A stretch of 64,000 nucleotides of DNA. Source: Allobosea sp. BH3 (GTDB lineage: Bacteria > Pseudomonadota > Alphaproteobacteria > Rhizobiales > Beijerinckiaceae). The stretch is from positions 496,001 to 560,000 of the forward strand of contig NZ_JAIMCA010000001.1 in the NCBI RefSeq assembly GCF_025499465.1, read 5' to 3'. Shown here in pieces: positions 13,955 to 18,471 of this stretch (its first letter is position 1; each line of letters opens with the position of its first letter). Both the position numbers and the translations under genes were made by a program. The notes beneath the pieces were generated by a model, which worked only from the letters and a program-made list of their open reading frames with translations, did not search any database and had not been told where the DNA came from.

Positions 13955-14614
13955 TTGGTTCGGTTCGAAAATGTCGGCCTGCGTTACGGCATGGGCCCGG
14001 AGGTGCTGAAGGACATCAACTTCAGCATCGCGCCGCGCTCGTTCCAGTATCTCACCGGCCCCTCGGGCGCCGGCAAGACGACGCTGATGCGCCTGATTCT
14101 GATGGCTCTGAAGCCCACGCGCGGCCTCGTCAGCCTGTTCGGGCAGGATGTTTCGCGCCTCGACAGCCCGACGCTGACCGCCTTCCGGCGCCGCATGGGC
14201 GTCGTCTTCCAGGATTTCCGCCTGCTCGATCACCTGACCGTCTACGAGAATGTCGCTCTGCCGTTGCGCGTGCTCGGTAAGGAGGAGGCCAGCTATCGCG
14301 CCGAGGTCGTCGAGCTGTTGCGCTGGGTCGGGCTCGGCGAGCGCATGCATGCGGTGCCACCCGTGCTCTCCGGCGGCGAGAAGCAGCGTGCCGCCATCGC
14401 GCGTGCCCTGATCGGCCGCCCGGAGCTGCTGCTCGCCGACGAGCCGACCGGCAATGTCGACCCCGGCCTCGGCCGCCGCCTGCTCCGGCTGTTCATGGAG
14501 CTGCAGCAGCTCGGCACCGCAGTGGTCATCGCCACGCACGATCTCAACCTGATGGACATCTACGACGCGCCACGCCTCGTACTGGCCGACGGGCATCTCC
14601 ATGTCGACGACTGA
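13955..14614 (+). CDS. ftsE: Cell division ATP-binding protein FtsE (TTG start)
   Basis: FtsE is the ATPase of the FtsEX complex, which couples the division ring to peptidoglycan hydrolysis. The 219-residue reading begins at a TTG (VRFENVGLRYGMGPEVL) preceded by ACGAGGAAGA about 8 bases away. It matches the usual FtsE length; the longer reading from 13853 is not conserved. Walker A GPSGAGKTT, Q-loop VVFQDFRLL, signature LSGGEKQR, Walker B LLLADEPTGNVD and the switch His in ATHD are present. It overlaps ftsX by 14 bases. Confidence 0.93.
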   Translation: MVRFENVGLRYGMGPEVLKDINFSIAPRSFQYLTGPSGAGKTTLMRLILMALKPTRGLVSLFGQDVSRLDSPTLTAFRRRMGVVFQDFRLLDHLTVYENVALPLRVLGKEEASYRAEVVELLRWVGLGERMHAVPPVLSGGEKQRAAIARALIGRPELLLADEPTGNVDPGLGRRLLRLFMELQQLGTAVVIATHDLNLMDIYDAPRLVLADGHLHVDD

Positions 14615-15563
14615 GATCGGCTATCACGAGCAGGAGCGCGTAGAGCGCAGACTGCCCGCCAACCTGCGGCGCGACCAGCCGCTCGTCCCGGTGGATAGCG
14701 TCGCCGGCAAGGCGCTGATGGCCGTGATCGCGATCCTGACCTTCCTCGCCGCCCTGAGCGCCGGCGCCGCGGTCCTCGCCGCCCGCGCCTCGGACCAGTG
14801 GCGCGGCGCCGTCTCCAACGAAATGACCATCCAGATCCGCCCCGATTCGCGCCGCGACGTCGAGAAGGACGTGGCGCGCGCCGTCGCGATGGCGCAGACG
14901 CTGGAAGGCGTCGAGGGCGTGCGAGCGGTCCCGAAGGCGGAATCGGACAAGCTGCTCGAGCCCTGGCTCGGCACCGGGCTCGACCTCGTCGAGCTGCCGG
15001 TTCCGCGCCTGATCGTCCTCCGGCTGAAGGCGGGCGAAAGTCCCGATCTCGCGGCCTTCGGCCCGCTGCTGCGCCGCGAGGTGCCGACCGCGATCCTAGA
15101 CGACCACCGACTCTGGGTGCGGCGTCTCTCAGCCATGGCCGGCACCATCGTCATCTCCGGCTTTTCCATCGTCATGCTGATCCTGACGACGACCGCGCTC
15201 GCGGTCGCCTTCGCCACGCGCGGTGCCATGGCCGGCAGCCGGGACAGCGTCGAGGTGCTGCATCTCGTCGGCGCCGATGACGACTTCATCGCCCGCGAAT
15301 TCCAGAGCCGCTTCATCCGGCTGGGACTGAAGGGCGGAGCGGCCGGCGGGCTCGCTGCCATCATAGCCATCGCAGTGCTGGGGTTCATCGCCTCGCGCTG
15401 GAGCACGGCCCCGGAGGCGGAGCAACTCCAGGCGCTGTTCGGTGCCTTCGAGATCGGCTGGGCGGGTTATGCGGCGGTCGTAATGGTCGCCGTAGTCGTG
15501 GCGGCGATCGCGGGCCTCGTCTCGCGCGTCACCGTCCGTCGCTATCTCGGGGCGCTGGCGTGA
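14601..15563 (+). CDS. ftsX: Cell division protein FtsX
   Basis: FtsX is the membrane partner of FtsE. The 320-residue protein has an N-terminal cytoplasmic tail, a first span (ALMAVIAILTFLAALSAGAAVL), a large extracytoplasmic loop (residues about 65-170) and three C-terminal spans. The last two of these are AAIIAIAVLGFIA and AAVVMVAVVVAAIAGLVS. It overlaps ftsE, giving a two-gene unit. Sequence conservation in FtsX is low, so the call rests strongly on topology and on the ftsE overlap. Confidence 0.92.
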   Translation: MSTTEIGYHEQERVERRLPANLRRDQPLVPVDSVAGKALMAVIAILTFLAALSAGAAVLAARASDQWRGAVSNEMTIQIRPDSRRDVEKDVARAVAMAQTLEGVEGVRAVPKAESDKLLEPWLGTGLDLVELPVPRLIVLRLKAGESPDLAAFGPLLRREVPTAILDDHRLWVRRLSAMAGTIVISGFSIVMLILTTTALAVAFATRGAMAGSRDSVEVLHLVGADDDFIAREFQSRFIRLGLKGGAAGGLAAIIAIAVLGFIASRWSTAPEAEQLQALFGAFEIGWAGYAAVVMVAVVVAAIAGLVSRVTVRRYLGALA

Positions 15564-16470: not shown

Positions 16471-16584
16471 CGCGGCCTCCCGGCCGAAGCGCCGGTTGAA
16501 CCGCATGGGCCCGCTTTGAGAACGGCTCCCACTTTTCGGGCCGCCGCGCTTGACCCCGGCCTCGTCTCGGGCTCATTGCGCAGA

Positions 16585-17346
16585 ATGCTCGTCCTGCGCT
16601 CCCTCGCCTTCAACATCCTGTTCTATGGCGTTCTCATCCTCTGGCTGATCTTCGGCGTCCTGCCCTCGCTGGTGCTGCCGAGGCGCGTGTTGCTGGCGGT
16701 CGCATTGGCCTGGGCCAGCACCTCGCTCTGGCTGCTGCGCGTTGTCGCCGGCACGCGCTGCGAGATCAGCGGCCTCGAGAACATTCCCGAGGGCGGGCTG
16801 ATGGTCGCGGCCAAGCACCAGTCCTTCCTCGAGACCTTCGCGCTCGTCACCATCTTCCGGAACCCGGTCTTCATCCTGAAGCGCGAGCTGACCTGGATTC
16901 CGCTCTTCGGCTGGGCGTTGAGCAAGATGCGCATGATCCCGGTCAACCGCGGCGCACGGGCAAGAGCGCTCTCCCACGTCACCCGCCGCGCGAAGGTCGA
17001 GCTCGGCCAGAATGGCCGTCAGCTCCTGATCTTCCCGGAAGGCACCCGGCGCCCGCCGGGCGCTCCACCGGCCTACAAGTTCGGCGTCGCCCATATCTAT
17101 GCTGAGCTCGGCGTGCCCTGCGTACCTGTTGCGCTCAATACCGGGCTCTATTGGCCGCGCCGCAAATTCCTGCGCCGGCCGGGCACGGTCCATATCGAGA
17201 TCCTGCCGCCGATCCCGCCCGGGCTGGACAAGGTGTCCTTCCAGCACAGGCTGCAGGAGACGATAGAGACCGCCAGCGACCGCCTTCTCGCCGAAGGCCG
17301 CGCCGAACTTGCCGCGCGCGGCATCGACCCGCTCGCCAACTCCTGA
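16585..17346 (+). CDS. plsC: 1-acyl-sn-glycerol-3-phosphate acyltransferase
   Basis: This membrane-bound acyltransferase makes phosphatidic acid from lysophosphatidic acid. It has two N-terminal hydrophobic stretches (FNILFYGVLILWLIFGVLPSLVL and LLAVALAWASTSLWLLRVV), the catalytic block as KHQSFLETF and the acceptor block IFPEGTRRPPGAPPAYKFGV. The catalytic block reads HX4E, whereas the textbook form is HX4D. This may be a subfamily trait. The ATG at 16585 is used; an upstream TTG at 16516 is possible. Confidence 0.9.
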   Translation: MLVLRSLAFNILFYGVLILWLIFGVLPSLVLPRRVLLAVALAWASTSLWLLRVVAGTRCEISGLENIPEGGLMVAAKHQSFLETFALVTIFRNPVFILKRELTWIPLFGWALSKMRMIPVNRGARARALSHVTRRAKVELGQNGRQLLIFPEGTRRPPGAPPAYKFGVAHIYAELGVPCVPVALNTGLYWPRRKFLRRPGTVHIEILPPIPPGLDKVSFQHRLQETIETASDRLLAEGRAELAARGIDPLANS

Positions 17347-17417
17347 CAGGCCCTGACAGCAGTCAGCATCTCAAGCCCCGACACCGTCTCGGCCGACGCT
17401 TGACTTATCCCCATGTC

Positions 17418-17432
17418 GTTCCCATTTTGTTC
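17418..17432. promoter_or_regulatory. LexA (SOS) box, alphaproteobacterial type
   Basis: GTTCCCATTTTGTTC matches the alphaproteobacterial LexA operator GTTC-N7-GTTC exactly. It lies 20 bases before the ATG of an unknown gene and overlaps the expected -10 position of a promoter whose -35 is TTGACT at 17400-17405. That layout would give classical repression by occlusion. Confidence 0.7.
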
Positions 17433-17452
17433 CTATCTCAGGAGGAACGGAC

Positions 17453-17845
17453 ATGGCCGCTCTCGCCTACAATCACATTGCCGATCTCTTCGACGAGCCG
17501 CCGGTCGCGCGCGAACTGCCGATGCGCAGCACCGCCAGCCTCAGCGAGCGCCGCTTCACCGCCTGGCGCGGTCGCTCCGGGCGGCGCTACGTCGCCTCGG
17601 TCTTCGCGGCGGACGACACCCATGCGCTCGGCTTCACCGATGCCGTACTGCTCGCGGTCTCGCCCGAGCGGCGCATCATCGCGGCCCGGGACTCCGGCCC
17701 CTTCGGCGTCGAGGCGGCGCTCTCCCGCTGGCAGCGCGCCATCGCGGCGGCCGGCGCCTGCGAGATCCATGTGCATCTGCTGGCCGAGGACGGGATGAGC
17801 CGCCGCGCCGCCCTGCTCGACCTGATGCCGCAGATGGACTCGTGA
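17453..17845 (+). CDS. Uncharacterised protein, probably SOS-induced
   Basis: A 130-residue soluble protein with no signal peptide or membrane span. It has a mixed N-terminus (YNHIADLFDEPPVARELP), a basic patch (ERRFTAWRGRSGRRYVASVF), a beta-rich middle (GFTDAVLLAVSPERRIIAARDSGPFG) and a last part reading EIHVHLLAEDGMSRRAALLDLMP. I do not recognise the family. The ribosome-binding site is strong (AGGAGG, 8 bases before the ATG), and a perfect LexA box with a TTGACT -35 sits just upstream, so a DNA-damage role is inferred. It is convergent with chaC, 6 bases away. Confidence 0.8.
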   Translation: MAALAYNHIADLFDEPPVARELPMRSTASLSERRFTAWRGRSGRRYVASVFAADDTHALGFTDAVLLAVSPERRIIAARDSGPFGVEAALSRWQRAIAAAGACEIHVHLLAEDGMSRRAALLDLMPQMDS

Positions 17846-17851
17846 ACCGGA

Positions 17852-18421
17852 CTAGCCGCTCAGTGGCGGATGCGGCGCGCCGAGCCCCGGCGCGAGTTCC
17901 TGCGCCAGACAGGCCAGGACGGGATCGTAGATGCCCATCTTGCGCAGGTGCTCATGTGTCTGCAGCACGTAATCCGGGTTCTCGCCAGAGCTGCCGCGCC
18001 CGCTTCGGACCAGTCTGAGCAGGTCCGTCGGCGGCAGCTTGCCGGCGTATTGCAGATGCCGGCGGTCGGCGACATAGACCAGCCCGCGCACCTGCCGCCC
18101 ATCCTCCAGCTTCAGCGGAACCTGGCGCTCGATATAGACCGAGGTCGCCTGCTCGCGCGCCCTCAGATAGGCGACGGTCTCGATCGCCTCGGCGGCCGCG
18201 ACACGGAAGGCGAGCCCCCGGCAGACTCCGCCCCGGTCGAGTCCGAGCACGAGGCCGGGCCGCTCCGGCGTGCCGCGATGGACATGCGAGAAGATGCACA
18301 GCGAGCGGTGGTAGCCGTGCAGGCGCCCCTGCACGCTCTCCTCGAACGGAAAGCCCGGCCGCCAGATCAGCGAGCCATAGCCGAAGACCCATAGATCCGT
18401 CGCGCCGAATTCCTTGGTCAT
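17852..18421 (-). CDS. ChaC-like gamma-glutamylcyclotransferase
   Basis: ChaC-family enzymes split glutathione into 5-oxoproline and Cys-Gly. The 189-residue product has the signature FGYGSLIWRPGF at the N-terminus. It also has a likely catalytic Glu in VYIERQVPLKL, the GLVYVAD strand and the C-terminal HLRKMGIYDPVLACL helix. The ATG at 18421 follows GGGAAGG and starts just before the signature; the longer frame to 18556 runs into a palindromic repeat and is rejected. Its proximity to an SOS-controlled gene looks accidental, as the two are convergent. Confidence 0.88.
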   Translation of the reverse strand: MTKEFGATDLWVFGYGSLIWRPGFPFEESVQGRLHGYHRSLCIFSHVHRGTPERPGLVLGLDRGGVCRGLAFRVAAAEAIETVAYLRAREQATSVYIERQVPLKLEDGRQVRGLVYVADRRHLQYAGKLPPTDLLRLVRSGRGSSGENPDYVLQTHEHLRKMGIYDPVLACLAQELAPGLGAPHPPLSG

Positions 18422-18471
18422 CGCCTTCCCATGATCTGGCCATACTGGCGCCCGCCGGATTGGCGAGCTAT

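Follow-up and report, generated by a model that had tools for sequence, protein, structure and literature searches.

A small gene behind a conserved SOS box in much of the Rhizobiales is predicted to encode a GIY-YIG-derived protein lacking the canonical catalytic residues

Descriptions of the SOS response in the Rhizobiales usually rest on genes already known in other bacteria. In the 64-kb stretch of DNA analysed here (the window), a small reading frame lies directly behind a putative LexA operator, which raises the questions of whether it is a further member of this response and what its product might do. The locus is laid out as follows.

14601–15563: upstream neighbour that we take to be FtsX-like; no Pfam match at E ≤ 1e-5; matched in 42/120 loci of the order
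16516–17346, + strand: upstream neighbour, acyltransferase (PF01553); a similar protein precedes the gene on the same strand in 63/120 order loci
17400–17405, + strand: TTGACT, a −35-like element, read directly
17418–17432, + strand: predicted LexA (SOS) box GTTCCCATTTTGTTC, of the form GTTC-N7-GTTC, overlapping the expected −10
17434–17448, + strand: eroded second operator in reverse orientation; many relatives have GAACAAAGGAGGAAC at the same place
17440–17446, + strand: ribosome-binding site AGGAGGA
17453–17845, + strand: 130-residue open reading frame, P0001, with its ATG at 17453
17852–18424, − strand: convergent downstream neighbour, ChaC (PF04752), with a predicted start; a similar protein lies downstream on the opposite strand in 73/120 order loci

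An earlier note on this DNA had described a lone exact GTTC-N7-GTTC 20 bases 5′ of a 130-residue gene with a strong ribosome-binding site, overlapping the expected −10 of a TTGACT promoter, and each of these elements is seen in the window. They follow one another in the order TTGACT, box, AGGAGGA and ATG, with a gap of 20 bases between box and start codon. A 17-bp spacer counted from TTGACT puts the −10 region (CATTTT, 17423–17428) inside the box. Of the reverse operator the window retains just the second GAAC (17445–17448). GTTC-N7-GTTC is the LexA motif of α-Proteobacteria in the parts of two papers that we covered (PMC3323433, PMC12700426). Its single exact occurrence on the two strands of the 64-kb window is no evidence by itself, because 1.09 are expected by chance, and 64 of 100 shuffled windows contained at least one exact box. 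In the window alone the position of the box over the promoter is suggestive; what lifts it above the level of chance is its conservation in relatives.

We searched 61 genomes, namely that of the window and 60 relatives, with the protein and found the gene in 47: its own, all 36 others of the same genus (Bosea) and 10 of the 24 from elsewhere in the order. The upstream DNA was readable at 36 of the 37 genus loci, L020 being cut by a contig end, and all 36 have at least one exact box (forward in 27, reverse in 20) with TTGAC upstream of it. The reverse boxes, GAAC-N7-GAAC, mostly read GAACAAAGGAGGAAC and lie over the ribosome-binding site. At genus loci that have no exact forward box (most read GTTC-N7-GTTT) the reverse box is intact. 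Forward and reverse forms of the operator thus seem to replace each other within the genus, one of them always being kept. An overlapping set, the best 80 of 140 relatives, had the box in 43 of 44 genus-type loci, the 44th being cut at a contig end, and in 18 of 36 non-genus loci. Two opposed boxes, GTTC-N7-GTTC followed by GAAC-N7-GAAC, stand near the start at L014, L028–L037, L039, L060, L064, L069, L085 and L088; such pairs possibly form a double LexA operator.

The operator extends well beyond the genus. Of 199 genomes sampled from the order, 120, that of the window included, have the protein family according to a profile of 24 members (alignment A1, drawn from the first 47 loci). A 108-row profile (A2, from which sequences more than 85% identical and loci L130, L149 and L160 were left out and into which L144 was put) found it in at least 8 of 289 genomes of a class-wide sample, no more than 14 candidates being scored in each; these are the genome of the window, two of the same taxonomic family and five outside it. 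At 120 order-level loci outside the genus we sought the box from −200 to +45 relative to the start of the matched domain. It is present in forward orientation at 74 and in either orientation at 79, spanning 26 of 35 families; leaving out the odd paralogue L144 brings these figures to 78 of 119 loci and 25 families. The family counts carry more weight than the locus counts, because members of a single family cannot be treated as independent. For comparison, other start sites in these loci were set mechanically at the first Met or Val of each open frame of at least 150 codons, so that not all of them belong to real genes; of 1007 such controls, 8 have a forward box and 26 a reverse one. The 71 forward boxes at L049–L165 share a T/A-rich middle, the commonest base at each position giving GTTCTATTTTTGTTC. 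TTGAC occurs within 45 nt upstream of 40 of these 71, starting 18–20 nt before the box in 35, compared with 169 of 5850 random positions.

The conservation upstream of homologues that the earlier note had proposed as a check was thus found throughout the readable genus loci and in most families of the order, and its reading of the layout as LexA-repressed gains strong support from these comparisons, although there are whole lineages that have no box. None was found in f33 (0/7), f34 (0/7), f12 (0/3) or the orthologues of f2 (0/7), the eighth f2 locus, which has a box, being L144. The box is also absent from 3 of 5 f28 loci, from the single loci of f3, f9, f19, f26, f39 and f45, from individual loci of other families, and from all 12 Hyphomicrobium loci. 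In genus g28 of family f1, all four loci have a reverse box alone. As a benchmark, an exact box in either orientation lies within 350 nt of recA in 16 of 28 hand-picked genomes, two of whose recA loci (L395 and L397) were cut at contig ends and unreadable; the operator is about as frequent at our gene (79/120) as at recA in the genomes compared. In f33 and f34 recA retains the box (2 of 2 readable loci and 3 of 3, respectively), which suggests that the gene has escaped exact-box control in these two families. In f2, where recA has no box either (0/4), the operator sequence itself may differ.

In the genome of the window, exact boxes number 110, compared with 64 matches to a control pattern. 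From the matches listed we hand-picked 20 stretches, mostly with T/A-rich boxes, and at 12 of these compared the adjacent genes with family profiles. Of the genes behind a box, lexA, recA, ssb, rmuC, a YifB-type ATPase gene and an umuD-like gene score above the cut-off of a matching model; two imuA-like genes score below it, as does a dnaB-like gene truncated by the end of its stretch. The box of the umuD-like gene, GTTCCTATTTTGTTC, stands at −36, almost the same distance as that of GTTCCCATTTTGTTC from the window gene, −35. The window gene shares its layout with this umuD-like gene and its motif with the α-proteobacterial LexA regulon, whose core comprises lexA, recA, dinB and/or polB, uvrA and imuA-imuB-dnaE2 in the part of PMC3323433 that we covered. 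Taken together, these comparisons make LexA control of the gene very probable.

The neighbours on either side help to identify orthologues. Within 1.5–2.5 kb, both the acyltransferase and the ChaC neighbour are found at 48 of 120 order loci and at least one of them at 88; many family members at 20–40% identity can be taken as orthologues by place because these neighbours are conserved. The box is equally frequent with them (58/88) and without them (21/32). No phage record matched the family, and among plasmid records there was one match, at NZ_LR743510.1:1085403–1085747 on a 2.8-Mb replicon of Methylobacterium bullatum. The gene table of that replicon, incomplete by its own description, lists no gene under this homologue.

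What does the gene encode? P0001 consists of an N-terminal tail of about 30 residues modelled with low confidence, a hairpin W-x-G-x-S-G-R-R-Y at residues 38–46 and a degenerate GIY-YIG-like domain at about 64–125. W38, G40, S42, G43, Y46, H108, D123 and L124 are conserved in more than 90% of A2 rows, and Arg45 of the hairpin, in 81%, is also a family feature. The protein is not net basic (15 Lys and Arg versus 16 Asp and Glu; L160 was left out of charge counts). In 13 pairs from the genus, dN is 0.005–0.18, dS 0.09–0.74 and dN/dS 0.03–0.32, and the frame is under purifying selection, because dN is well below dS in all of them.

The earlier note had placed the protein in no known family, and the curated libraries bear this out: Pfam, NCBIfam (E ≤ 1), PHROGs and PADLOC gave no fitting family, the anti-phage profiles of PADLOC-DB matched P0001 with 0 families at E ≤ 1, none of the 24 A1 members matched PF01541 at E ≤ 5, and a search of PDB sequences with the protein, its relatives or the profile returned nothing usable. 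Profile comparisons, in contrast, identify a remote, catalytically eroded relative of GIY-YIG domains. The A2 profile, one of whose 108 rows (L144) itself bears the motif, retrieved L253 (E 3.4e-9) and L254 (E 1.2e-7) from outside the order, and both read G-x-SG ... GIY or GLY ... YIG ... R ... E ... N. We assembled nine motif-bearing rows, picked by eye for a visible motif, as alignment A4 (L253, L254, L368, L370, L371, L373, L374, L144 and L337; L252, L255, L256 and L372 were retrieved but not used), and 24 Pfam-positive GIY-YIG domains of the same order as A3. A1, which does not contain L144, matched A4 with a probability of 98.8 (E 1.3e-16) over 98 aligned columns, and A4 matched A3 with a probability of 91.9 (E 7e-7), whereas 30 column shuffles per pair reached at most 0.3 for A1–A4 and 1.0 for A4–A3. 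Direct comparison of the family with canonical GIY-YIG domains was not significant (probability 2.7 for A2–A3 and 0.2 for A1–A3). By these profiles the family is homologous to GIY-YIG domains transitively, through intermediates. Eight motif-bearing relatives were also tried against Pfam: PF01541 is the best match, below the cut-off, for L253 (E 0.026), L370 (E 0.0032) and L374 (E 0.015), and L144, L254, L337, L368 and L371 have no GIY-YIG match.

AlphaFold2, run on the 108-row alignment, gave a model with a mean pLDDT of 79.9 and a pTM of 0.74, in which the low-confidence N-terminal tail is followed by strand-strand-helix-strand-strand-helix-strand-helix in an α/β domain, an element order compatible with the GIY-YIG fold. 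Foldseek searches with two models returned zero matches at E ≤ 0.001. Among the 50 matches listed per model, only 1yd6, the N-terminal GIY-YIG domain of UvrC, and 2lwf, which we take to be the GIY-YIG-like N-domain of a plant glutaredoxin, had a query-normalised TM score above 0.35; the best Foldseek probabilities were 0.72 and 0.47 for 1yd6 chains and 0.97 and 0.54 for 2lwf in the two models. TM scores to GIY-YIG domains in these weak matches were 0.36–0.53 under either normalisation. We consider GIY-YIG descent highly probable.

Descent from a nuclease need not mean nuclease activity, and the catalytic positions argue against it. At positions 66, 77, 87 and 121, eight of the nine A4 rows read Y/Y/R/E and one, L144, Y/F/R/E, although that eight keep all four partly reflects the choice of these rows for showing the motif. 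Among the 107 family rows (A2 without L144), 61 keep none of the four residues, 33 keep one and 13 keep two, none keeping more than two of four. Y66 occurs in 30 of 107, R87 in 9 and E121 in 19, and the seven commonest residues at 77 do not include Tyr. P0001 has L66, A77, E87 and L121. The GIY and YIG tyrosines and the catalytic Arg and Glu are not retained as a rule in the family, which differs in this from the GIY-YIG superfamily (PF01541; the UvrC N-terminal domain, 1yd6; Cho), as it does in its N-terminal W-x-G-x-S-G-R-x-Y hairpin. The motif-intact A4 proteins, which do keep Tyr, Tyr (Phe in L144), Arg and Glu, have the same domain and mostly the same W-x-G-x-SG-x-x-Y hairpin, missing or partial in L337 and L374; at hairpin position 45, Arg is found in none of the eight hairpin-bearing A4 rows and Lys in one (L374). 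L252 and L255 look intermediate. Because the catalytic Tyr, Tyr, Arg and Glu have been lost, the product most likely does not cut, and we think it is probably a non-nuclease.

Motif-bearing relatives are rare (5 of 249 and 3 of 240 genomes), and a forward SOS box was seen only before L144. L144:2447–2809 (G150:C6:911900–912262) encodes a second, motif-bearing GIY-YIG-like protein with Y/F/R/E and PPLN, whose box, GTTCTAGATATGTTC, lies 49 nt before the ATG; the same genome has the degenerate protein too. This is apparently an intact GIY-YIG gene behind an SOS box. Some bacterial GIY-YIG nucleases are SOS genes, such as Cho of E. coli.

Repression by LexA bound over a −10 region, and its release after damage, are well established. 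Given this knowledge and the operator layout, LexA would occupy GTTC-N7-GTTC across the −10 region and block transcription, and RecA-driven cleavage of LexA after DNA damage would free the promoter. The product would be a small protein made from a GIY-YIG nuclease domain and an N-terminal W-x-G-x-S-G-x-x-Y hairpin, in which the retained fold and the basic turn of the hairpin (SGRRY) may bind branched or damaged DNA, or a partner in repair or replication. As a whole, this explanation (an SOS regulon member in much of the Rhizobiales, encoding a GIY-YIG-derived pseudonuclease that acts after damage) has in our judgement about an even chance of being right; sequence comparison gives good support to its regulation and descent, and LexA binding, induction by damage, binding of DNA or of a partner and a role in repair are what we infer. 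For the product itself, a non-catalytic repair accessory factor is the reading that we place ahead of a regulator of nucleases, a rebuilt enzyme and a division inhibitor, with a probability slightly short of even. Among the functions guessed at in the earlier note it fits best.

The alternatives differ in what they make of the operator and of the residues that remain. That the box is coincidental or ancestral, and the gene not inducible by damage, would agree with the one box per window expected by chance and with the box-less lineages that retain the gene. We regard this as very improbable in view of the counts (36/36 readable genus loci and 79/120 order loci, versus 8 and 26 of 1007 controls), the matched spacing to TTGAC and the interchange of forward and reverse operators with one always kept in the genus. 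The protein might still be an enzyme, a nuclease of GIY-YIG fold or another hydrolase, with a site rebuilt from E104, H106, H108 and D123; these residues are frequent in the 107 family rows (H108 in 101, D123 in 106, E104 in 86 and H106 in 83), and the BapE protein of Caulobacter is an SOS-regulated endonuclease in the part of PMC4211646 that we covered. However, H108 (5/9) and D123 (8/9) also occur in the motif-intact relatives selected and may therefore be structural, and the family retains none of the four canonical positions as a rule. A rebuilt site thus seems unlikely to us, and some other activity of the family is possible given the conserved H108, D123 and E104.

If the box is real, the protein could instead act on an active GIY-YIG enzyme, for example UvrC, inhibiting it or serving as its regulatory partner. 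It is an inactive relative of the same fold, and its own genome has PF01541 matches in a 716-residue frame, presumably UvrC, and in two short ones; yet 60 of the 61 genomes have PF01541 proteins and the distribution of the family does not follow them, and we hold this reading to be improbable. An SOS-induced inhibitor of cell division, functionally like SulA or SidA, would suit a small protein under predicted LexA control and the recurrent FtsX-like neighbour upstream, although the place of the gene says little because it has its own promoter. SidA, DidA and BapE of Caulobacter are damage-induced α-proteobacterial proteins, SidA being 29 residues long and SidA and DidA both small transmembrane proteins (PMC4211646, in the part covered). 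The structure prediction that the earlier note had proposed gave an α/β domain instead, so the division inhibitor that it had suggested fits poorly, as does any SidA/DidA-like one. GIY-YIG ancestry points to nucleic acids, and we judge a division inhibitor to be quite unlikely.

A more specific form of the repair accessory reading is that the protein is an order-wide SOS factor whose dead GIY-YIG domain is brought to stalled forks by a clamp-binding motif in its disordered tail. The tails of some relatives contain QxDLF, QLNLL, QISLDF, QVAFDF, QLSLW, QVDLF, QLELL or QLDLL, which resemble the clamp-binding motifs of polymerases. Of 93 sequence clusters, 7 have such a tail motif, where 1.2 would be expected and 0 of 300 shuffles were as high, and one cluster has the motif in the core. 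For this count the pattern was chosen after looking, two of the seven clusters come from one family and 86 clusters are motif-free (L160 was left out of the clamp counts, and L144 also out of the cluster count). None of 156 proteins contains the motif in its strict form, QL[SD]LF, and P0001 has only IADLF, in which the Gln is missing. We consider this clamp-directed variant doubtful. Clamp-like motifs were seen in the N-terminal tails at L017–L021, L023–L026, L028 and L030–L037, and in the C-terminal tails at L090, L095, L109 and L125.

A description of the gene was not found in the literature searched, mainly the main text of open-access papers. The text covered of PMC8565304, PMC12700426, PMC4211646 and PMC3323433 does not describe it, and the text of section 7 of PMC3323433 names no such gene. 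If our explanation is true, it would add to the damage response a factor not found described in the literature searched, and one in which a nuclease fold has been retained for a non-cutting job under LexA control.

The genome of the window contains other genes with a similar arrangement. The two imuA-like genes, at L203 and L213, each lie behind SOS boxes, those at L203 being two that overlap. T/A-rich boxes also stand 37–71 nt before L201:1020–1418, L200:1083–2099 and L208:479–1042, which encode, respectively, a 133-residue protein with no Pfam match, a radical-SAM protein and a protein with a weak match to RNA 2′,3′-cyclic phosphodiesterase. These three are candidates for further SOS genes.
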